Assembly: GCF_917563915.1 (NCBI RefSeq)
Contig: NZ_CAKJTI010000003.1
Location: 248,001 to 312,000 of the forward strand
Reading direction: 5' to 3'
Source of the DNA: Bacillus rhizoplanae
Lineage (GTDB): Bacteria > Bacillota > Bacilli > Bacillales > Bacillaceae_G
Length of the DNA stretch: 64,000 nt
The notes below the pieces were generated by a model. That model saw only the letters and a program-made list of their open reading frames with translations. It searched no databases and had not been told where the DNA came from. This document shows, piece after piece, positions 26,094 through 58,115 of this stretch. The position numbers and the translations under genes are program-made. Each line of letters opens with the position of its first letter. Positions within the stretch are counted from its first letter, which is position 1.

Positions 26094-26112
26094 GGAACTC
26101 CTCCTTTTTTCA

Positions 26113-31876: not shown

Positions 31877-31925
31877 ACAAAATCCCCTTTCTCAATACTA
31901 CACTGAGAAAGGGGATTTTGTTTAA
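31873..31925. terminator. Terminator with a 22-bp perfect stem
   Basis: TTAAACAAAATCCCCTTTCTCA (31873-31894) pairs perfectly with 31904-31925. It contains the stop codon of the leftward COG0523 gene. Confidence 0.88.
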
Positions 31926-33106
31926 GATGCAGTCGTAAATGAAGGGATAGGATCAAGAAACGTATCCCAGTCTTCATACATTTCTTGTTCAGTTAATAAG
32001 CAGTGGTCCAAAGATTGTTCTATTTCTTCTCTGTTCATGTCAATACCGATAAAGACTAACTCTGTAATTCGGTCTCCGTATGCGTCATCCCAACGGTTTA
32101 AAATGTCTGGGTCTTCTGCAATAATTTGTTGTTGTTCTTCTTTTGAAGTAGCTGCAATCCACTCACCAGCTCCTTGAATCGTGATAGATGAACCAGCTTG
32201 AGAGAGAAGTCCAATGATATTGTTGCGAGAAGCAAGCCAGAAGAAGCCTTTCGCTCTCACGACGTCAAGTGGCCAGCTTTCGAGCCATTTCATCAATCTT
32301 TCAGAGTGGAACGGGCGCTTACGGCGGTATACAAATGATGAAATGTTATACTCGTCTGTCTCAGGTGTGTGTTCGCTGTTTAATTCTTTAATCCATCCAG
32401 CTGCTTGACTTGCTTTTTCATAGTCAAATAGATTCGTATTTAGGATTGTGTATAACGGCACTTGCGAATAAACTGCTTCAATAATACGAGCTTCTGGATT
32501 TAACCTTTGTAATAGTTTGTGAAGTTCTGTAATATCATCCTGCTCTAGCATATCTGTTTTGTTTAAAATAATTACATTTGCAAATTCAATTTGATCGATG
32601 AGTAAATCAATTACTTCGCGCGTATCTGTCTCATCAAGTGCTTCTTGGCGATCTAATAAACTTTCACCAGAAGCATAATCATCCCAGAAACGATTCGCAT
32701 CTACGACAGTAACCATCGTATCTAAACGACATGTATTTGATAAGTTGATTGCTAATTCTTCGTCCATATATGTGAATGTTTGTGCAACTGGAATAGGCTC
32801 ACTAATACCTGAAGATTCGATGACAATATAATCAATATCCCCAGATTCAACGAGACGGTTCACTTCTATAATTAAATCTTCACGTAATGTACAGCAAATA
32901 CATCCATTTTGAATTTCAACAAGTTTTTCCTCTGTTCTAGAAAATCCACCTTGTTTGACAAGTGCAGCATCAATGTTAATTTCGCTCATGTCATTAACAA
33001 TGACAGCTACTTTCATTCCGTCGCGATTTGTAAGTATATGATTTAGTAATGTTGTTTTTCCAGATCCTAAATACCCGCTTAATACTGTAACAGGAATTTT
33101 TTTCAT
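31922..33106 (-). CDS. Zinc-responsive COG0523 (CobW/YciC-type) GTPase metallochaperone
   Basis: A 394-residue G3E GTPase. The P-loop [10 protein letters not shown] is at residues 10-19, the metal-binding GCICC motif at 68-72 (Cys69, Cys71, Cys72), NKTD lies in the middle, and a CobW C-terminal domain follows. YciC-type members are thought to deliver scarce zinc to client proteins during zinc starvation. A near-perfect Zur box lies 19 nt upstream of the start codon and a second one about 85 nt upstream, which makes zinc regulation very likely. It is divergent from the permease/YcgQ-type pair. Confidence 0.9.
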
Positions 33107-33124
33107 ATAAAGACTCTCCTTTTT

Positions 33125-33145
33125 AAATCGTAATCATTACGTTTT
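33125..33145. promoter_or_regulatory. Zur box 1
   Basis: AAATCGTAAT-C-ATTACGTTTT matches the B. subtilis Zur consensus AAATCGTAATNATTACGATTT with two mismatches. It lies just upstream of the COG0523 gene. Confidence 0.88.
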
Positions 33146-33190
33146 ATTTCTTGTTATATCTTAAAGGATGCAAAATAAAATTGCAACAAT

Positions 33191-33211
33191 AAATCATAAT
33201 GGTTACGATTT
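33191..33211. promoter_or_regulatory. Zur box 2
   Basis: AAATCATAAT-G-GTTACGATTT, two mismatches from consensus, lies in the divergent region and could control transcription in either direction. Confidence 0.85.
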
Positions 33212-33273
33212 GTAAATAAGATATAGTAAGTATGCTGCGGATGAAACATGTCATAGAAAAAGAGGACAAGCAT

Positions 33274-33378
33274 ATGTTTACAATAGAGTGGAGCTTCTAT
33301 CAGAAAGGATTTTATTCATTTAGAATTCCATTACGGGACCTTACGAATAGTGTTTTTAAAAATTTTTCGGAATTTTGA
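33274..33378 (+). CDS. Possible short peptide downstream of Zur box 2
   Basis: A 34-codon frame starting MFTIEWSFYQKG with GAGG 8 nt upstream, ending just before a repeat insertion. It may be a genuine small protein, a leader or the remnant of a longer gene. No family is recognised, and evidence is limited to the SD and its position. Confidence 0.3.
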   Translation: MFTIEWSFYQKGFYSFRIPLRDLTNSVFKNFSEF

Positions 33379-33387
33379 AGTGGCGAT

Positions 33388-33542
33388 TTTATCCCGCATT
33401 AACGGGCAGTAAGACCCCCATCTCAAGATGCAGAGAGAAGCAAAGAAGATAGGTGGGGGATAGCTACCCGTAAAAGCCCGATTGAGCGGGCTTTCTATCA
33501 GTGGGGGTGAAAAACCCTCCACTGATGGAAGTTTTACTTTAT
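33388..33542 (+). repeat. bcr1-like repeat, full length, in the zinc locus
   Basis: TTTAT at 33388-33392 and 33538-33542 with both hairpins present. It lies between Zur box 2 and the permease gene. Confidence 0.92.
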
Positions 33543-33583
33543 TGCTAGGTGCATGAGATAACGATATAAAGGAGGAGATTGTA

Positions 33584-34564
33584 ATGACACTTGCACGGAT
33601 TTCTAGAGAAATTCTTGGTATGATGCTAATTGGACTATTTCTGTTCTTATTGTTTTTTGTTGATTTTACAAATGTATCATCGTTGCAAGCACTGATTCCG
33701 AAAAAGTGGATGAATGTAAATACAATCTTTTTGAGTATCTTTTTTGAAGCAGTTCCATTTATATTACTTGGCGTATTAATTTCAGGGATTATTCAAGTAT
33801 TTGTGACAGAAGAAGTGATCAGGAAAGTGTTGCCGAAGCATCCGATTGTTGCCATGTTTCCAGCTGCATTTGTTGGGGTGTTATTTCCGATGTGTGAGTG
33901 CGTAATTATTCCAATTGTAAGAAGGCTGATCCAAAAAGGACTACCACTTCATGTAGGAATGGTTATTCTTGTTAGTGCTCCTATATTGAACCCAATTGTA
34001 TTTTTATCGACATATTATGCGTTTCGTACGAATCACACAATTGTATATGGACGCTTTGGACTAGCTTTTCTTGTTGCTATATGTATGGGATGTATCGTGT
34101 ATTACTTGTATCGTAACAAAAATGTATTAAAAGAAAGCAGTGTGGTAAGTGAACATAAACATTCGAAGAGAAGTTGGAAAGAGGTTGCTTCACATGCAGC
34201 AGATGAGTTTTTTAGTACAGGAAAGTATTTGCTAATCGGCGCATTTTTGGCTAGCTTATTTCAAACGTTTTTAGATCGTCAAATTTTGACTGAATTAGGG
34301 AGCAGTAGTTTTATTTCTCCACTTGCGATGATGGCTTTTGGTTATGTTTTATCTCTTTGTTCTGAAGCAGATGCATTTATTGCAGCATCGTTTGGGCATA
34401 TTTTTTCAGCAAAAGCTCTTCTCGCTTTTTTAGTGTTTGGACCAATGCTTGATTTGAAAAATACAGTTATGTTATTTGCATATTTTCAAAAGAAGTTCGT
34501 GTTTCTATTTATGGCGATTGTGACGATTAGCGTGTATGTAATCGTGCAACTTGCGATGGGATAG
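33584..34564 (+). CDS. COG0701-type permease (YcgR-like)
   Basis: A 326-residue membrane protein with eight or more helices and the family motifs FFEAVPFILLGVLISG, FPMCECVIIPIVRRL and SLCSEADAFIAASF (Cys-containing membrane motifs). It is always paired with a YcgQ/TIGR03943 protein, as here (12 nt gap). Neighbouring Zur boxes and the COG0523 GTPase suggest a role in zinc homeostasis, possibly transport; the activity is not established. GGAGGAG precedes the ATG. Confidence 0.85.
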   Translation: MTLARISREILGMMLIGLFLFLLFFVDFTNVSSLQALIPKKWMNVNTIFLSIFFEAVPFILLGVLISGIIQVFVTEEVIRKVLPKHPIVAMFPAAFVGVLFPMCECVIIPIVRRLIQKGLPLHVGMVILVSAPILNPIVFLSTYYAFRTNHTIVYGRFGLAFLVAICMGCIVYYLYRNKNVLKESSVVSEHKHSKRSWKEVASHAADEFFSTGKYLLIGAFLASLFQTFLDRQILTELGSSSFISPLAMMAFGYVLSLCSEADAFIAASFGHIFSAKALLAFLVFGPMLDLKNTVMLFAYFQKKFVFLFMAIVTISVYVIVQLAMG

Positions 34565-34576
34565 GAGGCAAAGAAG

Positions 34577-35443
34577 ATGGAGGAGCAGGAGAAAAGGGGA
34601 TTTCATATTTATATTCGCGGCATTATATTGATTGGATTTGCTATGCTATTATTCAAATTACTTGTTACGGGACATATAACTAACTTTATTGCACCGCGTA
34701 TGATAAAACTTATTTATGTTGCAACAATTGTGTCTTTACTGCTTGGTTGTTTACAAGTGTGGCGAAGTGGAAATGAGAAGGTAAAGGCATGTCATTGCTG
34801 CGAGGGACATGGTTTCCCAAAAACGAAAATAGGAACTTGCTTCTTGTATGGATTATTTCTTATACCTATCATCAGCGCCTTTTTATTCTCGAGTGTAGCA
34901 ATTGATGGAAGTGTTGCTGCTAAACGCGGAATGAATCAAAGTACACAAACGAAGATACAGAAAGAAAATGAAGATTGGAAGAGTTTATTAGTAGATGAAG
35001 AGGAACGGCCAATTGCTAATGTACCAAGTTCTCAAAAACCATCGGAAGACTTAGAAAAGGACTTTTTGAAAAAGAAAAGCATACAAATAAATGATACGAA
35101 CTATATTGCTGCTATGGATATAATAGGTCGTGATGTTCTTGGTTTTAAAGGGAAAGAAGTTACGTATTCAGGTTTTGTATATCATGATAAAGAAGTGGAA
35201 GGAAATAACGTGGTAGTCGCACGTTATGGTATTACGTGCTGCGTGGCAGATGCGACGGTTTGGGGAATGATTGCTTCAGGAGAAGGAATTACTGAGTTGC
35301 AAGATGAGACGTGGGTTACGATTACAGGAATTTTAGATGAAACAACATATAGGGGCGCTTTATTTCCACTTGTAAAAGTAAATAAAGTAGAAAAAATAGC
35401 AGCTCCAAAGCAACCATATGTATATGAACAATTAATACCGTAA
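34577..35443 (+). CDS. TIGR03943/YcgQ-type membrane protein
   Basis: A 288-residue protein with three membrane helices (about 10-30, 38-58, 85-105), a cysteine/histidine cluster KACHCCEGHG between them that could bind metal, and a C-terminal extracytoplasmic OB-like domain with RYGITCCVADA. It is the usual partner of the permease upstream. AGGAGGC and close spacing indicate an operon. The partner cysteines fit a metal-handling role, but this is inference. Confidence 0.82.
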   Translation: MEEQEKRGFHIYIRGIILIGFAMLLFKLLVTGHITNFIAPRMIKLIYVATIVSLLLGCLQVWRSGNEKVKACHCCEGHGFPKTKIGTCFLYGLFLIPIISAFLFSSVAIDGSVAAKRGMNQSTQTKIQKENEDWKSLLVDEEERPIANVPSSQKPSEDLEKDFLKKKSIQINDTNYIAAMDIIGRDVLGFKGKEVTYSGFVYHDKEVEGNNVVVARYGITCCVADATVWGMIASGEGITELQDETWVTITGILDETTYRGALFPLVKVNKVEKIAAPKQPYVYEQLIP

Positions 35444-35480
35444 ACAAAAAGATGAGCTCATAATTGAGCTCATCTTAATT
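35443..35480. terminator. Bidirectional terminator
   Basis: Perfect 12-bp stem AAGATGAGCTCA with TAAT loop between convergent operons. T-runs are better on the minus strand. Confidence 0.82.
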
Positions 35481-35552: not shown

Positions 35553-37532
35553 TCACTTACATAAAGGGTTGTCAACTTTTACATAAAAATAGGCATGTGC
35601 TTCTCCCATTATACGCATAAGAGTTAAAGCTTTATAATCTACTTTATCTGCAAAAAAGACAGCATAGTCAGATATTGCATGCTCTTTATAGTTAGAATCT
35701 TTTTGTAAATCTATAAAAATATTGTTCAAGACTCGTTTTACAACATTCCACAGCAGTTGCTCATCTAGTTGATAGAACTGACTTATATGTAAAAATAACT
35801 CGCCAAAGTGATTTTGCATCACAGAGTAAAATACTTTATTACGCATACTTTTTTCATCATCTACTAGAATTCTTGATTTATGATGAAATACGTTTACATC
35901 AAATCCCGCATTTTGTAAACGACTACGATGAACTCGAATACCCTCCCAATCTCGCACGAGTAGTCGGTCCGGTGTACCATCTTTTTTAAATACAGGAACT
36001 GTATTTTGCAGGTGTCCTTCTAAACCAATGCCGTATTTAACCATGAGCGGAATAAAGCCGACAAGGGCATTTGTTACATATTTTTCAATAAACCTAGCAA
36101 TTGCATCGTGTAATGGTAGGTTGTGGCTATCTTTATATAACTCAATTAGTTCTACTATGACGGGTTTATTCGCACCGTGTACTGAAGCGACAAGGGCAGA
36201 GCCTACAATAGCCCATTCATCGTGTTTTACATAAGCATGAATGTTGTCGCGAATGACACAAGCGAGATTTTCGCTTCGTAATGTTTGTGTTTCTTCATCT
36301 ATGTCATTTGGATGAAGAAAATGAGCGCCAGCTCGTTCCATAATTGGAACAAAGCGAGTTTCGTCAATCATCGTATCTTGCGTAACAACTTGTTTTAAAA
36401 TATTGCTCATAAGTGGTCCATTATGAATGGTTTGTTCGGATAACGTCCGCACTTCTCCTGTTAAATGAATATTTGTTGTCAGTTTATAATGCGGTCTAAT
36501 CGTTTCATATTGTTCAGGAAAGATTGTACGAAATGACATGCCTGCTAAATAATTCGCTTCATAATCGAATAAAATGATGATTTGTTTTTCGAGTTCATCA
36601 CTGTAAATTTCACGTAGCGTATGAGTAGCTTGCCATGGATGAATCGGTAATAAAATGTAGTCATCTATTTTATCGCCAAGTCTTATTTCGGCTTCTACTT
36701 GGAGTACAGGTTCAAAAGAAAACAATAATGCATTCCAATTTTGTTCTTCCATAAAAGCAGCGCTTACATAATCTTGATGTATAGCTACAAAGCGCAATGG
36801 AATTGTATTTTTAAACTCAGCTGAATAGGCAAGTGTTTCTTCCGGACTTAAACCTTTTCTCATTTTGGTACCAGGGTGACAAGGGTGACCTTCTATAACG
36901 AGCTGTTCAAAAAAGGCATATGGATCTTGCGCTCGAGAAGCAGCTTGTAGCGTTGAAACATTCTCAGTTTGTTCATGAGATGTATAAGCAAGAGCTAAAT
37001 TGGCAGCGCTATTTGCGAGATCATCTTCAAACATATGAAAATAGGAAAGTGGTCCTTGCCAATCTTCATGTAGTAATAATGCCAATACTTCATTTGGATG
37101 TATAATTTCTGTTTGACTAGACGGTGAGACGAGAATGTACGGTCCCTTTACAAAAGGACGTTCAAAGGCATATACGTGTTGAATCGGTATAAGTAGATAT
37201 GTATTTTGTTGTTTAAAATATAGTCCTTGTATCATTGAAAACTCGTCAAATTGATGAATATGAGTGTTTATATAATCTAGTAAATAATCTGGGCAACGAT
37301 GATCTGAAAATGATGCAAACACCCCTTCGTGTTTTCTAAATATGATTCCAGTTTTTGTCATGTTACATATATTTTCACGTATGAAGGACGATAGTAGTCG
37401 TTCGAGTATACCAGTTCGTCCCTTTCGAATCATTTGTTGATAGGTTTCATGTAATGGAGCATGATGTTGTTGTAAAAAAGAAAGTAAATTTTGTTCTTCT
37501 ACTGCTAACGTTTGAATTTTATTTAGGTTCAT
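35553..37532 (-). CDS. sfaD: NIS siderophore synthetase, SfaD-like (IucA/IucC family)
   Basis: A 659-residue nucleotide-dependent siderophore synthetase. The ATP/substrate motif EGHPCHPGTK is at 214-223, HPWQ at 298-301, and the FhuF-type C-terminal segment has RDWEGIRVHRSRL, ending DNPLCK. In staphyloferrin A biosynthesis SfaD joins citrate to D-ornithine. The gene is divergent from the exporter and second synthetase, exactly as sfaD is in Staphylococcus. ATG at 37532 was chosen for AAAGGTGG 6 nt upstream; longer starts would run over the Fur box. The name is by gene order and family and needs phylogenetic testing. Confidence 0.82.
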   Translation of the reverse strand: MNLNKIQTLAVEEQNLLSFLQQHHAPLHETYQQMIRKGRTGILERLLSSFIRENICNMTKTGIIFRKHEGVFASFSDHRCPDYLLDYINTHIHQFDEFSMIQGLYFKQQNTYLLIPIQHVYAFERPFVKGPYILVSPSSQTEIIHPNEVLALLLHEDWQGPLSYFHMFEDDLANSAANLALAYTSHEQTENVSTLQAASRAQDPYAFFEQLVIEGHPCHPGTKMRKGLSPEETLAYSAEFKNTIPLRFVAIHQDYVSAAFMEEQNWNALLFSFEPVLQVEAEIRLGDKIDDYILLPIHPWQATHTLREIYSDELEKQIIILFDYEANYLAGMSFRTIFPEQYETIRPHYKLTTNIHLTGEVRTLSEQTIHNGPLMSNILKQVVTQDTMIDETRFVPIMERAGAHFLHPNDIDEETQTLRSENLACVIRDNIHAYVKHDEWAIVGSALVASVHGANKPVIVELIELYKDSHNLPLHDAIARFIEKYVTNALVGFIPLMVKYGIGLEGHLQNTVPVFKKDGTPDRLLVRDWEGIRVHRSRLQNAGFDVNVFHHKSRILVDDEKSMRNKVFYSVMQNHFGELFLHISQFYQLDEQLLWNVVKRVLNNIFIDLQKDSNYKEHAISDYAVFFADKVDYKALTLMRIMGEAHAYFYVKVDNPLCK

Positions 37533-37599
37533 AGAAACCACCTTTCTCAATTTTTTAGTCTTTACAAAGAAGTGAGAATATTTTATATTGTTTTTACAG

Positions 37600-37620
37600 T
37601 GATATTGATAATCAATTTCA
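37600..37620. promoter_or_regulatory. Fur box in the divergent siderophore promoter
   Basis: Two overlapping 7-1-7 motifs, TGATATTGATAATCA (37600-37614) and TGATAATCAATTTCA (37606-37620), each two mismatches from TGATAATNATTATCA. They lie between the sfaD-like and sfaA-like genes and predict iron-repressed expression both ways. Confidence 0.85.
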
Positions 37621-37661
37621 ATTATAAAAGAAGCATTTAAAAATGCAACAAAAAATTTGAG

Positions 37662-38855
37662 GTGGTTCATATTCGCAAACTCTTCTTTAGTAGTTCATTT
37701 TTCTTATTTATGGGGAATTGGCTTGGAATGACTGCAATCAATTGGTACGTCTATGATGTGTATCATAGTGCTACATATTTAGGATGGATAAACTTTGTAC
37801 GACTCATTCCAATTGCATTGTTTAGTGTATATGCAGGGAAGCTTTGTGATCTGCATCCGCGTATTAAGTTAATGAAGTTGTATTCATTTTGGGGGCTAGT
37901 AGTTACAACGTTACTTGCCATTTATGTTGTGTTTATTGCTCCGTCCTTTTTTATTTTCCTTCTTTTCTCATTTGTAAGAGGAGTAATTAGTGCATTAGAA
38001 ACACCAAATCGAAATACACTTCTTTCGGATATTGATACGAACAATCAAATTAGTAAACTTATATCTATGAATTCGTTTGTGATGAATGTTTGTCGCTCGA
38101 CAGGGCCGGCTGTAGCTGGATTTCTAATTGCAGGAGGACATATTGAACTTACATTTACGATGCAGGCAGTTTGTTCACTTATTGCATTCATTCTTGTCTT
38201 ACCAATGAAAGATCAAACGATGAAAAAACGAAAAGAAAAGAAAAAGGCAAGCTGGGAACAAATTGTTCAATATTTCTCTCATGATCATATGGGAAGAGAC
38301 ATTTTTATCACATCAATGATTATAATGGCTTTTGGTTTTTCGTATACGTCTGTATTGCCTGTACTTGTTTCGCATCAATTTACTGGAAAAGCAGAGGTAT
38401 TTGGCATTGCGATGTCTTCGGCAGCAATCGGTGCCATTATAGCAACTATTATTCTTCCTAAAGTGTTAGAGTACATCTCAGAAATTAGGATCTATTATAT
38501 TAGTTTAGTTTTGTTTTCTATTAGTATAGCGCTCCTTATTATTAGTAATACATTTGTATTTTTTATATTACTATTCTCTATTGGCCTTTTTGGACAGTTG
38601 TTACGTTCCAGTAATCGTGTTTATTTTCAAAACAATGTCTGTGAAGAGGAACGAGGACTTATGCTTAGTGTTGTATTAATGGATCGAGGAATGATTCCAC
38701 TCGGTTCAATTGTAGTAAGTTATGCCATTGAATATGTGGGTATTTCTGAAACATTTGTAATGATGGGTACTTTATGTATAATCCCATTTGTATTTCAGTA
38801 TATAAAAGTGAAACAACAAAAAGGGAAGGTGAAGAATTTTGTCCATTCAAAGTAA
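37662..38855 (+). CDS. sfaA: MFS siderophore exporter, SfaA-like
   Basis: A 397-residue transporter with 12 membrane helices. N-terminal RKLFFSSS and GNWLGMTAINWYVYDVY resemble the SfaA/MFS_3 exporters. Its place between two NIS synthetases argues that it secretes their product. The start is unusual: GTG at 37662 has no good SD, while the in-frame ATT at 37671 has AGGTGG at ideal spacing. The listed start is the conventional one. It overlaps the next gene by 17 nt, so translation is coupled. Confidence 0.82.
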   Translation: MVHIRKLFFSSSFFLFMGNWLGMTAINWYVYDVYHSATYLGWINFVRLIPIALFSVYAGKLCDLHPRIKLMKLYSFWGLVVTTLLAIYVVFIAPSFFIFLLFSFVRGVISALETPNRNTLLSDIDTNNQISKLISMNSFVMNVCRSTGPAVAGFLIAGGHIELTFTMQAVCSLIAFILVLPMKDQTMKKRKEKKKASWEQIVQYFSHDHMGRDIFITSMIIMAFGFSYTSVLPVLVSHQFTGKAEVFGIAMSSAAIGAIIATIILPKVLEYISEIRIYYISLVLFSISIALLIISNTFVFFILLFSIGLFGQLLRSSNRVYFQNNVCEEERGLMLSVVLMDRGMIPLGSIVVSYAIEYVGISETFVMMGTLCIIPFVFQYIKVKQQKGKVKNFVHSK

Positions 38856-40644
38856 ACAATCAAATCGAGTACAAGCGGAATATCGTATTTTAAATCGTTT
38901 TTGTAATGCATTAATTCGTGAAAAAAAATTATTAGAAAGTTGTGCTGTGCTAAAGCATGATTATGGTATTGAAATTATAGATTGTATGAATGAAGCAGAA
39001 TTATTATTAGAAGTGCAACAAGAAGGGGCATTTGAACGATACGAATTTGCTTTTCCACTCCGGTTTAAAGTAAGAGGACATGTTAGATGGATTGATTCAT
39101 TACAAATGTTTTTTGAGGAAGTAGCACCATTCTTTCAGCTTCATATTTCAGACTCCTTACAGAAAGAGTTACAGAATAGCGTGGAGAACCTAGAATTAGC
39201 TTATGAAGCATGGGAACAAAAACAAGAATGGGTAAAGCAGCAACTTGAAACAAACGTGATGTTTTTTGCGAAATACAGGCCAAATAATCTATACAAATTC
39301 TTTGAAGAATTAAAAATATGTATGCCGTTTGATGAATTATTATATACAGAGTCATTAGTAATTGAAGGGCACCCACTTCATCCTTCAACAAAAACAAAAC
39401 TAGGTTTATCAAAAGAAGAAGTAAAACGTTATGCTCCTGAGTTTGAGCAAGTTGTTCCGTTATACGTATTGCTTGTTCATAAAGATGTAACAGCAGTTAC
39501 AGGAGATAGCTTTGAAAAACCTGTATTATATGAAAATTTACCAGATTTATATGAAACTGCTTCTCAAATATTAGTAAGCAGAGGGGGCAGAATAGAAGAC
39601 TTTTATCCATTTCTTGTTCATCCATGGCAATATGAGCATGTACTAACAGAGGAGTATGGGGAAGAGTTAGAGGAAGGACGTATTATTCCAATCCCATATC
39701 AACTTTCGTCCAGAGCGACGCTTTCATTTCGAACAATGAATCTATTAGAGTTACCGTATCATGTGAAGCTTCCAGTACGCGCCCAAGCAACAAGTGCAGT
39801 TAGAACGGTATCACCAGAAATAACAGTAAATGGGCCAATTCTTTCTTCGCTGTTTGATACGATTTATGCGAATGAGAAAGAGTTAGCGCAGTCAGTAGTT
39901 GTCGTTCGTGAACGAGTTGGAGCTACTTTTACAAAACAGAATGATTTTCATTTAGGAAGGAATTTAGCATTTATTTTACGAGAAAGCCCAAATGCATATA
40001 AGCAAGAGGGAGAATTATTATGGGTTGGAGCTAGTTTAACAGCAAGCAATCCATTAAAAGAAGAGGAACCCGTTATTGTAGATATGATACGTACATATTT
40101 TGAAACAGAAACGATTGGTAAAAAAGAGGTATTTCACTATGTTGCTCATTACACTGAGAAAGTTATGATTCCTTTATTACAACTTGTTTTACAATATGGA
40201 ATTGCTTTAGAAGGACATATGCAAAACTCTATTATTGTTACAAAAAACGGAGAGGTCCAACGTATTTTTGTACGTGATTTAGGCGGAGTCAGAATTCATA
40301 AGAAGACATTAGCAAAGGTAGTGGATTTTGCTGAGGTTAAAGAAGCAGTCGTATTTACAGATGATATGAATGAGGTTTATAACAAGTTTATTCATTCGGT
40401 ACTGCAGAACCATTTTGGGGATTTATTATTTACGTTAGCTCGCTCGATAGATGACGTACAGGAAAAAGAATTATGGAGAATTGTTGCTGCTATTGTTAAA
40501 GAGTACATGGTAGATGCAACCGAAGAGGAAAAGGCAGCTATATTTGCAAAGCAAATTGAAACGAAAGCATTGTTCGCAATGAGAATACAAGATCAAGCAA
40601 AATCTTATTTGTATACAAGTTTTCATAACCCGCTTTGTATATAA
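38839..40644 (+). CDS. sfaB: NIS siderophore synthetase, SfaB-like (IucA/IucC family)
   Basis: A 601-residue synthetase of the same superfamily as the divergent gene but clearly a different clade by length and motifs: EGHPLHPSTK at 176-185, HPWQYEH and C-terminal RDLGGVRIHKKTL with HNPLCI at the end. SfaB adds a second citrate to the citryl-D-ornithine made by SfaD. Start is TTG with AAGGTGAAG upstream, inside the end of the exporter gene. Both synthetases appear complete. Confidence 0.83.
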   Translation: MSIQSKQSNRVQAEYRILNRFCNALIREKKLLESCAVLKHDYGIEIIDCMNEAELLLEVQQEGAFERYEFAFPLRFKVRGHVRWIDSLQMFFEEVAPFFQLHISDSLQKELQNSVENLELAYEAWEQKQEWVKQQLETNVMFFAKYRPNNLYKFFEELKICMPFDELLYTESLVIEGHPLHPSTKTKLGLSKEEVKRYAPEFEQVVPLYVLLVHKDVTAVTGDSFEKPVLYENLPDLYETASQILVSRGGRIEDFYPFLVHPWQYEHVLTEEYGEELEEGRIIPIPYQLSSRATLSFRTMNLLELPYHVKLPVRAQATSAVRTVSPEITVNGPILSSLFDTIYANEKELAQSVVVVRERVGATFTKQNDFHLGRNLAFILRESPNAYKQEGELLWVGASLTASNPLKEEEPVIVDMIRTYFETETIGKKEVFHYVAHYTEKVMIPLLQLVLQYGIALEGHMQNSIIVTKNGEVQRIFVRDLGGVRIHKKTLAKVVDFAEVKEAVVFTDDMNEVYNKFIHSVLQNHFGDLLFTLARSIDDVQEKELWRIVAAIVKEYMVDATEEEKAAIFAKQIETKALFAMRIQDQAKSYLYTSFHNPLCI

Positions 40645-40658
40645 TAGGAGGAATAAAC

Positions 40659-41756
40659 ATGCTACCTATCATGAAAGTAAACCTTTCAAAATTGAAGTAT
40701 AATGCCATGATAATGAAACGATTATGCGAGCGTTCAAATATTATATGTTTTCCTGTAACAAAAGGGGTCGGCGCTGCAAAAGAAGTAATTGAAACCCTTC
40801 AAGAGACAGGGTATACAAGATTTGCTGATTCTAGATTACAGCATCTTTATAAAATCCGTTCTATTGTAGGGAAAGAAGCTGAGCTTTTATTAATTCGTGC
40901 ACCAGCTTTGTCAGAAGTAGAAGAAACGGTTCTTTGTGCAGATATTAGTTTGAACTCTGAACTATGCATCATAGAAGCATTGGGAAGAGCAGCAAGAAGA
41001 TACAGAACAACGCATCGTGTGATTCTAATGGTTGATTTAGGTGATCTACGCGAAGGAATAATGCCATATCAAGTTGTGGAAGCAGCGCAGAAAGTATCGA
41101 ATATATCTGGAATTGTACTCGATGGTATTGGAGCGAATTTCACTTGTTTTAGCGGTGTTATTCCAACTGAACATTCTTTACAAGAATTAACGCAATTAGC
41201 AAAAATGGTAGAGAAGAAAATTGGGAAACCGCTTCGGTTTATCTCAGGCGGTAATTCAAGTTCGTTACCACTTATCATGCAAAGAAAACAAATTGGACGT
41301 GTTAACTCTTTACGGGTTGGAGAAGCTATTTTTCTTGGAAAAGAAACAGCATATGGAAAGAATATTTCTTTTATGTACCAAGATGTATTCTCAATAGAAG
41401 CAGAAATCATTGAAATAAAAAGAAAGCCGTCTATGCCCAAAGGCGTTATTGGAAAAGATGCATTTGGGCAAGTTCCGTATTTTGAAGATAAAGGGGAGCG
41501 ATTACGAGCGATTGTTGCAATAGGAAGGCAGGATCTTGATATTAGCGGTTTACGACCCTTCGATAGGAATATTGAAATTCTTGGTGGAAGTAGTGACCAT
41601 TTAATTGTTGATATAACGGATAGTACACCGTATAGCATAGGAGATAAAATGACATTCGTTCCGACGTATAGTGCATTGCAAAGCGGCATGGTTTCTTCAC
41701 TTGTACAAAAAGAATATGTATATGATGATGTACTGCAAAAAGCGCTTATCTTATAA
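40659..41756 (+). CDS. sfaC: Fold-type III PLP racemase, SfaC-like (putative ornithine racemase)
   Basis: A 365-residue alanine-racemase-superfamily protein with PLP lysine candidate Lys35 in FPVTKGVGA, RFISGGNSSSLP and GRVNSLRVGEAIFLG around the phosphate site. In the staphyloferrin A locus SfaC is the PLP racemase thought to supply D-ornithine. AGGAGG is 7 nt before ATG 40659. It is the last gene of the biosynthetic operon and is followed by two repeat copies. Its TAA stop is part of the first copy's ATAAA boundary. Confidence 0.8.
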   Translation: MLPIMKVNLSKLKYNAMIMKRLCERSNIICFPVTKGVGAAKEVIETLQETGYTRFADSRLQHLYKIRSIVGKEAELLLIRAPALSEVEETVLCADISLNSELCIIEALGRAARRYRTTHRVILMVDLGDLREGIMPYQVVEAAQKVSNISGIVLDGIGANFTCFSGVIPTEHSLQELTQLAKMVEKKIGKPLRFISGGNSSSLPLIMQRKQIGRVNSLRVGEAIFLGKETAYGKNISFMYQDVFSIEAEIIEIKRKPSMPKGVIGKDAFGQVPYFEDKGERLRAIVAIGRQDLDISGLRPFDRNIEILGGSSDHLIVDITDSTPYSIGDKMTFVPTYSALQSGMVSSLVQKEYVYDDVLQKALIL

Positions 41757-41864
41757 AAGTAAAACTTCTGTAAGTGGGGGGATTCTTCATCCCCCCACTT
41801 ATTTTTTTCGTTTTTCTCTGAATGTTGAGGTGGGCGTCTTATTGCCCATGAATAGCGGGATAAA
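41753..41864 (-). repeat. bcr1-like repeat, internally rearranged copy
   Basis: ATAAA at 41753-41757 and 41860-41864. It contains GTAAGTGGGGGGATTCTTCATCCCCCCACTTA-type palindrome at 41771-41801 and one arm of the first hairpin. Confidence 0.82.
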
Positions 41865-41951
41865 GTGAAACTTTCATTAATTGTGATTGTATTCTCTCCT
41901 AGTTCCATTAAATATCGATGTGAGAGTCTTACTGTTTGTTAGTACGAGAGA
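41860..41951 (-). repeat. Second, older bcr1-like repeat in tandem
   Basis: Starts at the shared ATAAAGTGAAACTTTCATTA and ends ...GTCTTACTGTTTGTTAGTACGAGAG. The copies share one ATAAA, so one inserted at the boundary of the other. Confidence 0.65.
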
Positions 41952-42030
41952 GTGCGTGAATTATTATATATTAATAAATATTCTCTCAATAAATGGTAGA
42001 CAATTCTTAAAATTATGTTATTATATTAAA

Positions 42031-42045
42031 TGAAAATGATTATCA
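42031..42045. promoter_or_regulatory. Fur box of the siderophore uptake operon
   Basis: TGAAAATGATTATCA differs from TGATAATNATTATCA at one position. It lies 26 nt upstream of the lipoprotein start codon. Confidence 0.9.
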
Positions 42046-42071
42046 ATACTGTTTAAATGGGGGACTACATA

Positions 42072-43034
42072 ATGAAGGGGAAAAAACTTAGCACTTTACT
42101 TGTAGCTATGTCATTAATGGTGGGAGCACTTGCCGGCTGCAGTGGAGGAGCAAAAGAAACAGCAAAGAAAGAAGATAAAGCGGAAGCAACGAAACAAGCA
42201 AGCTCAGTGAAAGTTAAACATGAGTGGGGAGAAACAGAGTTAAAGGAAACACCGAAAAATATAGTAACTCTTGATTTTTCATTTATTGATACATTAACGG
42301 CTTTAGGCGTTACACCAGTTGGGAATGCTGGGGTAGGAACAACAAAAATACCAGAGTATTTACAAGATAAAGTATCAAAAGTGACAGATGTTGGGGAGCG
42401 AAAAGCACCGAACTTGGAAGTTGTTTCATCCGTGAATCCAGACTTAATTATTGCAAGTAAGGATCGCCACAATATGATTCAAAAAGAATTACAAGATATA
42501 GCGCCAACAATTGCATTTGATGATAACAGTTATGAAGAAGTAATGAAAAATATGGATACGATTGCAAAAGCAGTTGGAAAAGAAGAAGAAGCGAAAAAGG
42601 TTAAAACAGACTTAGATAATAAAATTTCAAAAGCAAAAGAGAAAGTAAAAGGAAATCCAACAGTACTTGTAATCGGAGCTTTTGATGATGAGTTTTCTGT
42701 ATGGATTAAAGATTCCTTTATTGGTACTTTAATGACAGACATTGGCGTTACATATGCATATGAAGGAGAAAAAGCAAAAACAGAGGGTAAGGCAGAAATT
42801 GCAAAAATTACGATGGAACGTCTAAATGAAATTAATCCTGACTATATTTTCTTATATGGAGAGAATGTAGAGAAGTTTAAAAATAATCCACTATATAATA
42901 ACTTAAAAGCAGTGAAAGAAAAGCATGTAGTTGACGTTGATCGTAATCTTTGGGCTCGCGGACGCGGACCAATTGCAGCAGATAAAATTTTAGATGAGGC
43001 GATTCCGGCATTAACAGGTCAGTCTTCTAAATAA
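42072..43034 (+). CDS. Ferric siderophore/ferric citrate-binding lipoprotein (YfmC/HtsA-like)
   Basis: A 320-residue helical-backbone substrate-binding protein with signal peptide and lipobox LAGC (Cys23), then a charged linker and a FecB/BtuF-type domain (NIVTLDFSFIDTLTALG, NPDLIIASKD). The closest recognised relatives by pattern are B. subtilis YfmC (ferric citrate) and staphylococcal HtsA (staphyloferrin A). Being next to a citrate-siderophore biosynthetic operon and under its own Fur box, it most likely captures the ferric product. ATG at 42072 has GGGGG upstream. Confidence 0.87.
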   Translation: MKGKKLSTLLVAMSLMVGALAGCSGGAKETAKKEDKAEATKQASSVKVKHEWGETELKETPKNIVTLDFSFIDTLTALGVTPVGNAGVGTTKIPEYLQDKVSKVTDVGERKAPNLEVVSSVNPDLIIASKDRHNMIQKELQDIAPTIAFDDNSYEEVMKNMDTIAKAVGKEEEAKKVKTDLDNKISKAKEKVKGNPTVLVIGAFDDEFSVWIKDSFIGTLMTDIGVTYAYEGEKAKTEGKAEIAKITMERLNEINPDYIFLYGENVEKFKNNPLYNNLKAVKEKHVVDVDRNLWARGRGPIAADKILDEAIPALTGQSSK

Positions 43035-43047
43035 GGAGTTGGAGACT

Positions 43048-44079
43048 TTGTATCATACACAAACTAGAAGCAGACGGGCATTAAACCCGTATGCTTCTTC
43101 TACTTTGCAATTTATCTTCTTTTTTCTACTATTAGTAATGTTTGGAGCCCTCTCCGCATTATTTCGTGTAAAAGGATTATCATTTCATAACATATCAGAA
43201 GTATTTGCAATAGATACAAAAAACTTAATTTACTATACTGTTTGGCAAGTACGTGTGCCGCGTGTACTACTAGGAGCTCTACTAGGAGCAGCGTTAGCCG
43301 TAGCGGGATGTCTATTACAAGGAATTACACGAAATCCTTTATCTGATCCGGAAATTATGGGAGTAAACCAAGGAGCTTCTTGCTTTGTTGTGATTGCCCT
43401 TTTAGTGTTTGGAGAGAAGGAGGCATCTTTCGTTATTTTACTAGCAGCTTTTCTTGGAGCAGCAGTAGGCGGAAGTGTCATTTATTCATTAGCGTTTCGC
43501 GGTGAATATACACCTTCACGTCTTGTTCTTGCCGGTATTGCAGTGAGTTTATTTCTTGGATCATTAACAACAGGAGCGATTTTGTTATACGAAACGAAAC
43601 TAACAGAAATTTTATATTGGATGGCTGGGAAATTATCAGGAGCAAGTTGGTTAGATGTAAAAATGATGTTAGTATCGGCACTTCCTGTTACAATCATTAC
43701 TTTTTTTCTAGCAAATCAATTGAACATTTTGTCTCTAGGTGAAGAGACAGCACGTGGGCTTGGCATAAACGTTCTTCGTATTCGGCGAGTATTTGCGCTT
43801 TTAATTGTTCTTCTTGTCGGTAGTGCGGTTGCGGTAGCGGGGCCAATTGGGTTTATTGGACTCATAGTTCCGCATGTTGCAAGAAAACTAGTCGGTCAAG
43901 ATTATCGAGTTATTTTACCATTTTCAGCATTGCTCGGTGCAAACCTTCTTGTCATAGCGGATTTTGCAGCGCAGTGGGTTTCTTATCCAGCGGATACACC
44001 TGTGGGTGTTATAACCGCACTCTTAGGCACACCGTTCTTCATCTATTTAATGAGAAGAAAGCGAGGTGCTGTCAAATGA
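43048..44079 (+). CDS. Iron-siderophore ABC permease (FecCD family) 1, YfmD/HtsB-like
   Basis: A 343-residue permease with about nine membrane helices. FecCD hallmarks are RVPRVLLGALLGAALAVAG, GITRNPLSDPEIMGVNQGA and the cytoplasmic coupling GIPRLVG-type site, here GPIGFIGLIVPHVARKLVG. It pairs with the next gene as a heterodimer. TTG at 43048 was chosen for the AAGGAG 9 nt upstream. Confidence 0.88.
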   Translation: MYHTQTRSRRALNPYASSTLQFIFFFLLLVMFGALSALFRVKGLSFHNISEVFAIDTKNLIYYTVWQVRVPRVLLGALLGAALAVAGCLLQGITRNPLSDPEIMGVNQGASCFVVIALLVFGEKEASFVILLAAFLGAAVGGSVIYSLAFRGEYTPSRLVLAGIAVSLFLGSLTTGAILLYETKLTEILYWMAGKLSGASWLDVKMMLVSALPVTIITFFLANQLNILSLGEETARGLGINVLRIRRVFALLIVLLVGSAVAVAGPIGFIGLIVPHVARKLVGQDYRVILPFSALLGANLLVIADFAAQWVSYPADTPVGVITALLGTPFFIYLMRRKRGAVK

Positions 44080-45053
44080 AGAAGTTTGGTCGATTTACAA
44101 TTGTTATGATAGTAGGCCTTATATTGCTAATTGCAGTTGCTCTGCTTAGTTTACGGCTTGGAGCTGTGCCAACACCAATTGCTGATATTATAGAAGGAAT
44201 GATGACAGGACAAGGTGTTGTAGTAAAATATCGTTTACCGCGTCTTGTTATAGCGATTTTAGTTGGAATTAATATGGCATTATCAGGGGCCATTTTACAA
44301 AGTGTTACACGTAATCCACTTGCTGCACCTGACATTATTGGGATTTCTGCTGGCGGAGGATTAGCAGCTGTTATTATGTTGCTTATGTTTCCAAATGTAC
44401 CGCCAATTATGCTGCCTATTGCTGCATTTGTCGGAGCAATGCTTGCGAGTTTATTAGTATACGCTTTATCGTATCAAAAAGGAGGAGTGAAGCCAGAGCG
44501 TCTTGCACTATGCGGCGTTGCAATTTCTGCGGGCTTACATGCGCTCATTACATTTATTATTGTGAAATTTGCACTTGACTCCTCACAAGCTCTCGTATGG
44601 TTAAAGGGAAGTTTATATGCGAGGTCTTGGCAACATGTTGAAATGCTATGGCCATGGACCTTGATTGGTGCGGTGATTACATTTATGAGTTATAAACAAA
44701 TTAATCTTTTATTATTAAATGAAGAAACTGTAAAGGGTTTAGGAATGCGTATTGATGTTGTTCGTCTTGTACTTATCGGTGTAGCAGTTGCTTTAGCAGC
44801 AAGCTCAGTAGCGGTAGCAGGTACAATTGGTTTTGTAGGGCTTGTTATTCCGCATGCAGCGCGTTTACTTGTTGGCTCAGACAGTAGATTATTTTTGCCG
44901 GTGTCTGCATTGCTCGGTGCATTGCTTGTTACCGGGGCAGATATGGTAGGGAGAATTATTATTCCGCCAATTGAAATACCAGCTGGCATTATTACCGCAT
45001 TAATTGGAGCGCCGTATTTTATATATTTATTGGTAATTAGAAAAACAACATAA
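44076..45053 (+). CDS. Iron-siderophore ABC permease (FecCD family) 2, YfmE/HtsC-like
   Basis: A 325-residue permease sharing the FecCD motifs (RLPRLVIAILVGINMALSG, VTRNPLAAPDIIGISAG, TIGFVGLVIPHAARLLVG). Its ATG overlaps the stop of the first permease (ATGA), the usual coupling for a heterodimer. GCGAGGTG lies upstream. It completes the membrane channel for the ferric siderophore. Confidence 0.9.
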   Translation: MKKFGRFTIVMIVGLILLIAVALLSLRLGAVPTPIADIIEGMMTGQGVVVKYRLPRLVIAILVGINMALSGAILQSVTRNPLAAPDIIGISAGGGLAAVIMLLMFPNVPPIMLPIAAFVGAMLASLLVYALSYQKGGVKPERLALCGVAISAGLHALITFIIVKFALDSSQALVWLKGSLYARSWQHVEMLWPWTLIGAVITFMSYKQINLLLLNEETVKGLGMRIDVVRLVLIGVAVALAASSVAVAGTIGFVGLVIPHAARLLVGSDSRLFLPVSALLGALLVTGADMVGRIIIPPIEIPAGIITALIGAPYFIYLLVIRKTT

Positions 45054-45073
45054 ATAAAAAAGGAGTGAACAAG

Positions 45074-45895
45074 ATGACAAGTTTATATACGGAACACTTG
45101 GAGCTTACGTACGGAGATCAAACAATTATTAATCATCTTGATTTACATATACCAGAAGGGAAAATTACGGCACTTGTCGGTCGAAATGGATGTGGAAAGT
45201 CAACGATTTTAAAATCGTTAGCGCGGTTGCTGCAGCCAACTAAGGGACATGTATACTTAGATGGCAAAGCAATTCATACGATACCAACAAAAGAAGTATC
45301 AAAGAAATTAGCCATCTTACCGCAATCCCCGACGGCTCCCGAAGGATTAACGGTAGAAGGACTTGTTTGGCATGGGCGTTATCCGCATCAGCGATTACTT
45401 GGAAAACGAACAGAGAAAGATCATGAAATGGTAAATTGGGCACTTGAAGTAACTGGTATGAATCAATTTACAGAACGTACATTAGATGAACTGTCAGGTG
45501 GGCAGCGTCAGCGCGTTTGGATTGCAATGGCACTTGCGCAAGATACAGAGTTATTGTTATTAGATGAACCGACAACATATTTAGACATGGCTCATCAGCT
45601 AGAAGTACTAGAGTTACTGAAAAAATTAAATGAAGAAGAAAATCGAACTGTTGTGATGGTTGTACATGATTTAAATCACGCGGCCAAGTATGCGGATCAC
45701 ATTGTTGCGATTAAAGATGGGGATAAAGTAATGGAAGGTGAGCCAAAGGATGTTTTAAATGATGAATTGTTTGAAACAGTGTTTGGTGTGAAAGCGCGCG
45801 TTGTATATGATCCAGTTGCCATGGCGTATATGTGTACGCCGTATGCTTTACTTTCAGAGAAAAAAGAAAAGCAGGAAGAAAGAATTGTTGGGTGA
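45074..45895 (+). CDS. Iron-siderophore ABC transporter ATPase (FecE-type, YfmF-like)
   Basis: A 273-residue ATPase. Walker A GRNGCGKST, Q-loop LPQSP, signature LSGGQRQR, Walker B LLLLDEPT and switch His in VVHDLNH are all present. It energises uptake with the two permeases and the lipoprotein. ATG at 45074 has AAAGGAG 8 nt upstream. Last gene of the operon, followed by a strong terminator. Confidence 0.93.
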   Translation: MTSLYTEHLELTYGDQTIINHLDLHIPEGKITALVGRNGCGKSTILKSLARLLQPTKGHVYLDGKAIHTIPTKEVSKKLAILPQSPTAPEGLTVEGLVWHGRYPHQRLLGKRTEKDHEMVNWALEVTGMNQFTERTLDELSGGQRQRVWIAMALAQDTELLLLDEPTTYLDMAHQLEVLELLKKLNEEENRTVVMVVHDLNHAAKYADHIVAIKDGDKVMEGEPKDVLNDELFETVFGVKARVVYDPVAMAYMCTPYALLSEKKEKQEERIVG

Positions 45896-49603: not shown

Positions 49604-50368
49604 GTGAATGATATTTCGGAATGGTTTTGGAATGCCTCAGTAGAAGAATTGAAAAAAGGATATGTATTTGAGAAGGAAACTGAAGAATACATTTGTTTAG
49701 CGTGCGGAGAAAGATTTGTGAAAGGTGTGATTTATCAAGAGCAAAACGTTTTTTATGAAGCGGAGAAGTTTGCACAGCTTCACATCGCAAACGAACATAC
49801 TTCTATGTTTGATTATTTATTAGGTTTGGATAAGAAGCTAACAGGTTTAACAGATTTACAGAAGAAGATGGTACAGTTCTTTCATATGGGCTTAAACGAT
49901 AAAGAAATTGTAAAAGAAATGGACGGTGGAAGCACATCAACAATTCGGAATCATCGTTTTACATTAAGAGAGAAGATGAAGCAAGCAAAAGTGTTTCTTG
50001 CGTTGATGGAGTTGTCAGAAGAAAAGGTATCGAATCAGCCTACATTCTTGCCAATTCATAGAACAGCTACAATGGTCGACCAAAGATATAATATTACGGA
50101 AGATGAGAATGAAGAAATTTTGAAGTTACATTTTACAGAAGGATTAGATGGACCACTTTCTAAATTTCCGAAGAAACAAAAGCGAAAGCTAATTATTTTG
50201 AAACATTTAGTGAAAAAGTTTGATAGTAATCAAAAGTATACAGAAAAAGAAGTTAATGAGATTTTAGAAAATGTGTATTCTGACTATGTCACGTTAAGAA
50301 GATATTTGATTGAATATGGCTTTCTAGATAGAACACCTGATGGAAGTCAGTACTGGGTGAAATTATAG
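49604..50368 (+). CDS. DUF2087-domain transcriptional regulator with LuxR-type HTH
   Basis: A 254-residue protein with three parts. The N-terminal zinc-ribbon-like region has ICLACGERFVKG and HIANEH. A LuxR-like HTH has LTDLQKKMVQFFHMGLNDKEIVKEM and STIRNHRFTLREKMKQAK. The C-terminal DUF2087 domain (about 170-250) has LSKFPKKQKRKLIILKHL and the end YGFLDRTPDGSQYWV. GTG at 49604 has GGGGGA 9 nt upstream. It is followed 35 nt later by the GIY-YIG gene, likely in the same operon. The target is unknown. Confidence 0.85.
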   Translation: MNDISEWFWNASVEELKKGYVFEKETEEYICLACGERFVKGVIYQEQNVFYEAEKFAQLHIANEHTSMFDYLLGLDKKLTGLTDLQKKMVQFFHMGLNDKEIVKEMDGGSTSTIRNHRFTLREKMKQAKVFLALMELSEEKVSNQPTFLPIHRTATMVDQRYNITEDENEEILKLHFTEGLDGPLSKFPKKQKRKLIILKHLVKKFDSNQKYTEKEVNEILENVYSDYVTLRRYLIEYGFLDRTPDGSQYWVKL

Positions 50369-50403
50369 AAAAAAATGCAGATAACATGAAAGGAGAAAGG
50401 AAA

Positions 50404-50760
50404 TTGAATAGAAGAGAAGAATTAAAACAGCTGTACAAAGAAACAGAAATAGAGGCTGGGGTTTACTGTATTAAAAATACAAAAAATGAAAAAGTGTATG
50501 TTGAGAGAACGATGAATTTGAAAACAATGAGTGGAAGACGACTTTTACTTAATATGGGTACTCATATGAATAAGGCATTGCAAGATGATTGGAAGGAATA
50601 CGGGGCAGATGCTTTTGAGTTTGAAATATTAGAAGTGTTGAAAAAGAAAGAGACTGGATATTTTAACGCAAAAGAAGAATTGAAAAAATTAGAAGAGAAA
50701 TGGTTAGAGGAATTGCAGCCATATGGAGAGCGTGGATATAACCGCGAAACATCTCGATAA
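50404..50760 (+). CDS. GIY-YIG nuclease-domain protein
   Basis: A 118-residue protein. GVYCIKNTKNEKVYVERT carries the GIY..YIG-equivalent (GVY/VYVE) and a later Glu in KLEEKWLEEL may be the metal-binding residue. The second tyrosine-containing motif is altered (YVE for YIG). It has no intron or mobile-element context, so a housekeeping or defence-like role is open. TTG at 50404 was preferred for AAAGGAG; an ATG at 50386 has no SD. Confidence 0.75.
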   Translation: MNRREELKQLYKETEIEAGVYCIKNTKNEKVYVERTMNLKTMSGRRLLLNMGTHMNKALQDDWKEYGADAFEFEILEVLKKKETGYFNAKEELKKLEEKWLEELQPYGERGYNRETSR

Positions 50761-50775
50761 AAGGGGTTATGAAAT

Positions 50776-52152: not shown

Positions 52153-52231
52153 AGATTTGGTATCATTTTTCTTGTTAAACAAATGGAGCACTAATAGAAA
52201 TAAGATACAAAAATAAATATGTGAACAAAAG

Positions 52232-52268
52232 ATCTCTTCTAGATTACTTATCTGGAGGGGATTTTTTC
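52232..52268 (+). terminator. Terminator of the MATE gene
   Basis: 13-bp stem ATCTCTTCTAGAT/ATCTGGAGGGGAT with G-U pairs, then a T-run. Confidence 0.75.
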
Positions 52269-52622
52269 ATAGGATTCTAGATAAAGTACTGTGATTTATA
52301 AAATTATAGTAAAATAGTCAATCCAAATAAACTTGGGGGAATTTTCATACGAAACAAATAAGATTAACTAAACAATCATGTTATTGTCTAAACTGCTTTT
52401 TGATCCTTGATTTAATTTGCTTCCTATAAGAGTAAACTCCTTTTACATTTTCTCTCTTATTAAGTGGACTTGCTAAAAAAAGTATAACCCCGAACAGCTT
52501 TAATAAATTACTTAATGCTTTCATGCAACATAAATATAGGTATTGGGAATAGTAAATTTATTGCTAAAAAATAAAAATTATATTTTTGAAATATATTCAT
52601 TAAGAGGTGAAGATTTGTAGAT
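52269..52622. other. Intergenic region, possible small leftward peptide
   Basis: A 47-codon leftward frame at 52381-52524 encodes MKALSNLLKLFGVILFL followed by a strongly basic tail. It has no Shine-Dalgarno sequence, so it is not called a gene. Nothing else was recognised; the promoter of the MFS gene should lie after 52540. Confidence 0.35.
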
Positions 52623-53816: not shown

Positions 53817-53856
53817 TAAAAATACAAATTTTAAAGATTACTCTTTCGTAATAAAG

Positions 53857-53905
53857 AAGGAAGCATAAACCTTCAATTTACGTAAAGTTATGCTTCCTTT
53901 TTTTA
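53857..53905 (+). terminator. Terminator of the MFS gene
   Basis: Stem AAGGAAGCATAA/TTATGCTTCCTT with a T-run. Confidence 0.85.
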
Positions 53906-53936
53906 GTACATATGCTACTGATTAAAGGGTACAAAT

Positions 53937-54090
53937 ATAAAGTGAAACTTCCATCAGTGGGGGCTCTTCATCCCCCACTGATGGTTAGTTGAACCAATCG
54001 GGCTCTTACAGGCAGTTATCCCCCACCTAGCTTCTTCGCTTTCTCTGAATCTTGAGGTGGGGGTCTTACTGCCCGTTAGTGCGGGATAAA
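53937..54090 (-). repeat. bcr1-like repeat, full length
   Basis: ATAAA at 53937-53941 and 54086-54090. Both hairpins are intact; one of the best-preserved copies here. Confidence 0.92.
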
Positions 54091-54193
54091 TTTGACACTT
54101 GTACACATTGAACAAAAGAAATAGGAGGTAAGTTACTAGAAGTTAGAGAAATTATGGAGGAGAAAGAATGATGCAAGTAGGGGGGAATATATA

Positions 54194-54622: not shown

Positions 54623-54686
54623 TATGCGAAAGGAAACCTTTCATCAATAAGGGATTGCTGAATTGCTAACAATTTCATGAAGTTGT

Positions 54687-54718
54687 AAAACGAGGGGCGT
54701 ATAATCCTCTCGTTTTTG
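54687..54718 (+). terminator. Terminator
   Basis: Stem AAAACGAGGGG/CCTCTCGTTTT with one G-U pair and T-run. Confidence 0.75.
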
Positions 54719-58111: not shown

Positions 58112-58115
58112 AAAT

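Follow-up and report, generated by a model that had tools for sequence, protein, structure and literature searches.

A diverged staphyloferrin A-type siderophore locus predicted in Bacillus rhizoplanae

Gene content and arrangement

The stretch analysed here, referred to below as the window, is 64,000 nucleotides of the Bacillus rhizoplanae genome (assembly GCF_917563915.1, contig NZ_CAKJTI010000003.1, positions 248,001 to 312,000), and at its positions 35553-45895 it carries eight genes resembling those with which staphylococci make, export and recover the carboxylate siderophore staphyloferrin A. By the list of open reading frames (ORFs) and the Pfam domains assigned to them, all eight frames are open and comprise IucA_IucC with FhuF twice, MFS (major facilitator superfamily), Ala_racemase_N, Peripla_BP_2, FecCD twice and ABC_tran. 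A leftward sfaD is followed by the rightward genes sfaA-sfaB-sfaC and then by a separate uptake operon encoding a receptor, two permeases and an ATPase (Table 1). A preliminary description of this DNA had recognized the gene order of the staphyloferrin A locus, with an Hts-type uptake operon downstream of the racemase gene, and both observations are borne out: the synthesis and export genes all stand in that order with the expected domains, and the receptor, both FecCD permeases and the ATPase are present.

Table 1. Features of the locus, in window coordinates. NIS, nonribosomal peptide synthetase-independent siderophore.
Feature	Position	Strand	Remarks
Terminator-like hairpin 3' of sfaD	35449..35476		scored on both strands; 12 pairs
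sfaD-type NIS synthetase, 659 aa	35553..37532	-	ORF listed to 37670; SfaD clade
Two overlapping Fur-box-like 7-1-7 sites	37600..37620		at 37600 and 37606, 2 mismatches each; sfaD/sfaA gap
sfaA-type MFS exporter	37662..38855	+	start GTG 37662 or ATT 37671
sfaB-type NIS synthetase, 601 aa	38839..40644	+	TTG start; SfaB clade
sfaC/orr-type ornithine racemase, 365 aa	40659..41756	+	ORF listed from 40635; Orr model
Terminator-like hairpin after sfaC	41770..41802	+	14 pairs, T-rich tail
Fur-box-like site	42031..42045		1 mismatch; just behind promoter-like hexamer pair (41997-42024)
HtsA-like receptor lipoprotein	42072..43034	+	ORF listed from 42057; best solved relative HtsA
FecCD permease, HtsB position	43039..44079	+	domain, tree
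FecCD permease, HtsC position	44076..45053	+	ORF listed from 43974
FecE-type uptake ATPase	45065..45895	+	none in staphylococcal loci fetched

Gene starts, including that of sfaA, were refined by eye from the sequence. The listed sfaD ORF is over-called, its likely start being the ATG at 37532 behind AAAGGTGG, and this start leaves a gap to sfaA that houses the overlapping Fur-box-like sites. For sfaC, the receptor gene and the second permease gene the starts are probably those given in Table 1. The GTG listed for sfaA sits within AGGTGG, its ribosome-binding site, and because this sole upstream start codon falls inside that site the real start may be the ATT. The 14-pair terminator-like hairpin that follows sfaC suggests that sfaABC is probably transcribed separately from the uptake genes, which have a Fur-box-like site of their own. 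Recent acquisition of the locus as an island was considered and rejected, as base composition along the window showed no marked step in G+C there.

Candidate Fur sites were scored against a 7-1-7 consensus that we take to represent the Fur box. With at most two mismatches the window contains four, of which three lie within the locus, two overlapping in the gap between sfaD and sfaA and one closely preceding the receptor gene. Among forty simulated sequences of 64 kb the mean was 1.45 such sites and the maximum 5; with at most one mismatch the simulated mean was 0.15, and the window has one site. Sites were predicted at the same two places in all 12 relatives checked, namely the four non-staphylococcal loci and 8 of 17 staphylococcal loci with a receptor gene, always within about 240 bases of the start listed for the gene. 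On this scoring, both promoters of the locus carry Fur-box-like sites. Fur boxes at htsA have been reported in S. lugdunensis (PMC3996567, in excerpt).

Relationships of the synthesis, export and uptake proteins

The two window synthetases, which are 31% identical to each other over 461 aligned positions, were placed in two trees, a quick one of 53 NIS proteins and a careful one restricted to 36 of them; the 17 rows omitted from the latter were 12 from six staphylococcal loci, the Ectobacillus pair L022 and three from L117. The rightward synthetase fell within the SfaB clade (support 100/100 in the careful tree, 100 in the quick tree) and the leftward one within the SfaD clade (100/99 and 98, respectively), while L022, present in the quick tree only, was placed just outside the SfaD clade. 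Beyond both clades lay the staphyloferrin B-type L115 and L113 (Cytobacillus), the petrobactin-type L119 pair, the schizokinen-type L118 pair, the three-synthetase loci L116 and, in the quick tree, L117, a Paenibacillus pair and rhizobial plasmid enzymes. These comparison types were assigned from the genes around them, using sets of domains that we presume to go with the named siderophores, and the trees were built without proven AsbA/AsbB, IucA/IucC and FslA sequences. L119 adjoins AMP-binding, DUF6005 and AP_endonuc_2 genes and L118 a lysine/ornithine monooxygenase gene; L113 was classed as staphyloferrin B-like because its citrate-lyase-like and Orn/Arg-decarboxylase-like neighbours match those of the sbn locus L115. 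By the preliminary description's own test, grouping of the synthetases with aerobactin-, petrobactin- or schizokinen-type enzymes would have refuted it; instead they join SfaB and SfaD, apart from the petrobactin-, schizokinen- and sbn-type enzymes.

Gene content led to the rejection of the same systems. For petrobactin (asb), 35553-45895 has no AMP-ligase, DUF6005 or isomerase-like domain, and for schizokinen or aerobactin it has no lysine/ornithine-type monooxygenase or acyltransferase domain. The hallmarks of staphyloferrin B (sbn) we take to be three synthetases, a citrate-synthase-like SbnG and the decarboxylase SbnH, and here there are two synthetases and no SbnG- or SbnH-type domain.

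At the level of single residues, both window synthetases have all 25 NIS near-invariant columns, defined by conservation in 48 or more of the 51 remaining rows. Another 27 columns separate 11 staphylococcal SfaB rows from 11 SfaD rows; at these the window SfaB is SfaB-type at 15 and SfaD-type at 4, and the window SfaD is SfaD-type at 21 and SfaB-type at 3. In the SfaB tree the staphylococci are nested among other Bacilli (90/86, 82/84), and in the SfaD tree they are not.

The racemase scored 394.7 bits against the NCBIfam ornithine-racemase model (cut-off 480), which was its sole NCBIfam match at E values up to 0.001; the alanine-racemase model gave no match. Against the same model S. schweitzeri SfaC, the one staphylococcal SfaC scored, reached 246.6 bits, so that the window racemase fits the profile better, and Acetoanaerobium Orr reached 549.6 bits. 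The window protein keeps all 38 near-invariant columns, in which 42 or more of the 43 relatives share a single residue. By these measures it belongs to the Orr/SfaC family. The Acetoanaerobium enzyme (L002) is 45% identical to it, falls in the same NCBIfam family and has the near-invariant positions in common, but its gene adjoins those for D-ornithine 4,5-aminomutase rather than siderophore synthetases. In a quick racemase tree of 44 rows the window racemase is among eight poorly resolved rows, together with Orr, two further Bacillales racemases and the SfaC of four more loci outside the staphylococci; branches with support of 100 part these eight both from 11 staphylococcal SfaC and from a clade of 25 stand-alone Bacillales racemases.

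With six SfaA proteins, three from staphylococci and three from Bacillales, the window SfaA has 44-47% identity. Among seven proteins taken from MFS positions elsewhere, only the displaced one of Brevibacillus matched it significantly (26%, 117 bits), and SbnD gave no significant match.

HtsA is the receptor's closest relative of solved structure (133 bits). R299, R304, R306, R86, K203 and Y239 are used below as what we take to be the names of HtsA positions. The window receptor retains R104, R126, R299, R304 and R306 and has Lys in place of R86. It was compared with other receptors in a set of 14 from sfa loci (the window, Brevibacillus, three Bacillales genomes and nine staphylococci) and four from other loci. 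R104, R126, R299 and R306 are present in 14 of the 14, and R304 in 11, the other three having Lys; among the four from other loci, R126 occurs in three and R104, R299, R304 and R306 in none. YfmC, in printed alignments, is without the C-terminal three arginines of HtsA. The contacts of HtsA include R104, R126, H209 and F146, and His209 has been named as critical (PMC10553834, in excerpt). In trees, window and Brevibacillus form a pair both for the receptor (100/99, 19 rows) and for the first permease (100/100, 11 rows), and identity to S. schweitzeri HtsA is 47% for the receptor of one Bacillales genome, G051, and 32% for that of the window. On these trees and alignments the receptor and first permease of window and Brevibacillus are a subtype apart from HtsA and the other Bacillales loci.

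Occurrence of the locus in other genomes

An alignment scan of genome contigs with both synthetases returned 27 loci, 23 of them from Staphylococcus. All 23 have sfaB, sfaC and a divergent sfaD, which, given their share of the loci returned, puts the gene arrangement beyond chance; sfaA is present in 16, and the receptor and two permeases lie downstream in 17. The staphylococcal loci without sfaA include those of S. pettenkoferi, S. argensis and S. hominis, in which its loss has been described (PMC12709192, in excerpt). With the staphylococcal sfaABCD and htsABC genes the window thus shares the four genes for synthesis and export, unchanged in order and orientation, the downstream receptor and permeases, five receptor arginines, and Fur-box-like sites at both promoters, as in all eight staphylococcal loci checked. 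It differs in sequence (32-44% identity to S. schweitzeri over seven shared proteins), in its receptor, which has neither His209 nor Tyr239, and in its ATPase gene, found in the operon of none of the 23 staphylococcal loci; in staphylococci FhuC serves as the ATPase (excerpts of PMC3996567 and PMC12864493).

Outside that genus, Brevibacillus sp. SYP-B805 has the full gene set with its MFS gene displaced. Of 39 genomes in the Brevibacillus family 23 gave some synthetase match, SYP-B805 alone at Sfa level. Among 397 sampled Bacillales genomes 44 had a racemase match, and in 3 of the 30 loci fetched (G051, G076 and G093) SfaB and receptor adjoin the racemase. All three read sfaA-sfaB-sfaC-receptor-permease-permease-ATPase with sfaD divergent, the sfaD of G076 being partial at a contig edge. 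These three and Brevibacillus thus have the same eight genes as the window, ATPase included, and in G051, G093 and Brevibacillus SfaD is 45-48%, SfaB 38-43% and SfaC 44-47% identical to the window proteins. The differences lie in the receptors of G051, G076 and G093, which are nearer to HtsA than the window's, and in the low identity of the Brevibacillus exporter given above. In a sample of 398 genomes of Bacilli 55 gave a match, and SfaB adjoins in 17 of 25 newly fetched loci, one of them the known Brevibacillus locus; across 398 genomes from the phylum, 7 gave a synthetase match, whatever its type.

Other searches returned no close relative. A racemase-only scan of genome contigs, which covers only close copies matching its six patterns, found none. 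Searches of plasmids gave 1790 records for SfaB (40 of them listed) and 21 for the racemase, every one below 60% identity, and plasmid origin was rejected after searches with 1-25000, 25001-50000 and 50001-64000 gave csp and nhaC matches only, or none. Outside the locus, the window's fumC reached at most 76% identity among 397 Bacillales genomes. In a 19-genome family set YfiY of B. cereus reached at most 73%; this set thus seems to contain no B. cereus-group genome and speaks neither for nor against the B. cereus-group placement of the preliminary description.

Some other loci came to light in the course of these searches. G093 holds a petrobactin-type locus (L119) as well as its sfa-type locus (L111), showing that a single genome can carry both. 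Ectobacillus funiculus has two adjacent synthetases placed next to the SfaD clade (L022:9734-13398) and no racemase hit, as in all 19 genomes of the Ectobacillus family searched; a similar adjoining pair lies at G068:C4:78688-82348, and both pairs possibly serve the synthesis of a related carboxylate siderophore. On rhizobial plasmids (L003:3795-7830, L004:3567-7599) a synthetase stands beside cysteine-synthase-like, octopine-dehydrogenase-like and Y4yA pyridoxal phosphate-dependent enzyme genes.

Predicted function, alternatives and surroundings

Judged by its gene content and trees, the locus is an orthologue of the well-studied staphylococcal locus with modest variation in uptake, and, the partly retained HtsA pocket apart, the features that define a staphyloferrin A locus genetically are found in it. 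It most likely constitutes a Fur-controlled system of the staphyloferrin A type for synthesis, export and re-uptake, and the product to be expected with good confidence is staphyloferrin A itself, two citrates on D-ornithine. The racemase would convert L-ornithine to D-ornithine, the MFS protein would export the product, and the ferric complex would be re-imported by the HtsA-like lipoprotein and both permeases, together with the ATPase that the operon encodes. The four-gene orthology, gene order, receptor arginines and Fur-box-like sites are read from the sequence, and the chemistry, iron regulation and product are carried over from the staphylococcal system, for which the roles of SfaD, SfaB, SfaC, SfaA and HtsABC are described in excerpts of PMC3996567 and PMC9598555.

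Several observations weigh against this interpretation. With up to three mismatches the Fur-box-like sites show no excess, 15 in the window against a shuffle mean of 13.8. The receptor matches YfmC at 125 bits, only slightly below HtsA, and its top NCBIfam model is that of a ferric dicitrate receptor (191 bits, below the cut-off of 320). In printed alignments YfmC, too, has equivalents of R104 and R126. Lys203, His209 and Tyr239 of HtsA are missing from the window receptor, and the last two are present in 12 of the 14 sfa-locus receptors, the exceptions being window and Brevibacillus. As for the racemase, the preliminary description had assigned it to SfaC; its membership of the Orr/SfaC family and the lack of an alanine-racemase match agree with this, but an exclusive clade with staphylococcal SfaC was not recovered in the 44-row quick tree. 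The top named NCBIfam profile for both synthetases is FslA, of rhizoferrin synthesis. Finally, in the excerpts consulted, the second amine acylated differs by source, alpha in PMC3996567 and delta in PMC9598555.

Part of this evidence would suit a product with a different backbone or linkage, in which two citrates are carried by another D-amino acid such as D-lysine, or are connected otherwise, yielding a novel carboxylate siderophore to which the divergent receptor would be suited. The uptake subtype shared with Brevibacillus, in which the receptor is without His209 and Tyr239, points in this direction, as do the modest identities of SfaB (34%) and SfaD (37%) to those of S. schweitzeri, and a lysine analogue, corynebactin, is known, made by a fused double synthetase (PMC7857480, in excerpt). 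Yet the racemase fits the ornithine-racemase model and has all its near-invariant columns, and the closest sfa-type synthetases (G051, G076, G093) stand beside receptors that do have His209 and Tyr239, and we regard such a product as quite unlikely. A narrower proposal, that window and Brevibacillus both make a relative of staphyloferrin A with another backbone or linkage, read by their own receptor subtype with the arginines kept, is unlikely as well; if it were true, the sfa synthesis genes would be a module joined to differing receptors in Bacilli, giving private versions of the siderophore.

That the synthesis genes look intact but go unused, the strain mainly importing ferric citrate or foreign staphyloferrin A, would accord with the ferric dicitrate model as top match of the receptor, below cut-off though it is, and with S. 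lugdunensis, which shows uptake without synthesis (PMC3996567, in excerpt). We consider it very improbable, given eight open frames, synthetases and racemase with their full sets of family near-invariants, and Fur-box-like sites at the synthesis promoter also. A rhizoferrin-type locus, joining two citrates to putrescine, is more improbable still. The FslA scores of 209 and 211 bits are far below the cut-off of 1000, and the profile also ranks first for S. schweitzeri SfaB and SfaD (177 and 160 bits). For rhizoferrin one synthetase suffices, with a decarboxylase in Francisella (PMC7857480, in excerpt); two synthetases and a racemase are present here, and 35553-45895 has no decarboxylase frame.

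Staphyloferrin A is mostly treated as a staphylococcal trait, and the locus described here lies outside that genus. A survey of staphyloferrin A genes covered the genus Staphylococcus (excerpt of PMC12709192), and excerpts of PMC10740426, PMC13293324, PMC11865118, PMC8196777, PMC9352062, PMC12403628, PMC9309559 and PMC12864493, which do not establish its absence from print elsewhere, assign staphyloferrin A to staphylococci or merely mention staphyloferrin. The comparisons above make it probable that bacteria other than staphylococci, too, produce staphyloferrin A or something closely related to it. With a complete, diverged and Fur-box-bearing copy in Bacillus-like and Brevibacillus genomes, siderophore prediction for these organisms should include staphyloferrin A. 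Since conserved synthesis genes are here combined with a divergent receptor, these distant homologues should also be of use in tracing the specificity residues of SfaB, SfaD and HtsA.

Adjoining the locus, 31922-35443 likely holds a zinc-response cluster, in which a ZigA-type GTPase gene (537.6 bits against an NCBIfam cut-off of 600) faces those for an ArsP_1 permease and a DUF1980 protein. Scored with a consensus that we assume for Zur, Zur-box-like sites lie between these genes at 33128-33142 (1 mismatch) and 33194-33208 (2 mismatches); the window as a whole has 8 against a mean of 4.9, no clear excess. PDB matches to the helix-turn-helix (HTH) regulator encoded at 24879-26147 were confined to short HTH domains. 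A TnpB-like gene with OrfB_IS605 and Cas12f1-like TNB domains occupies 11854-12966, over 20 kb away from the locus, and matches to a cspA thermoregulator (7377-7729, minus strand) and a PreQ1 riboswitch (5240-5284, plus strand) were found elsewhere in the window.

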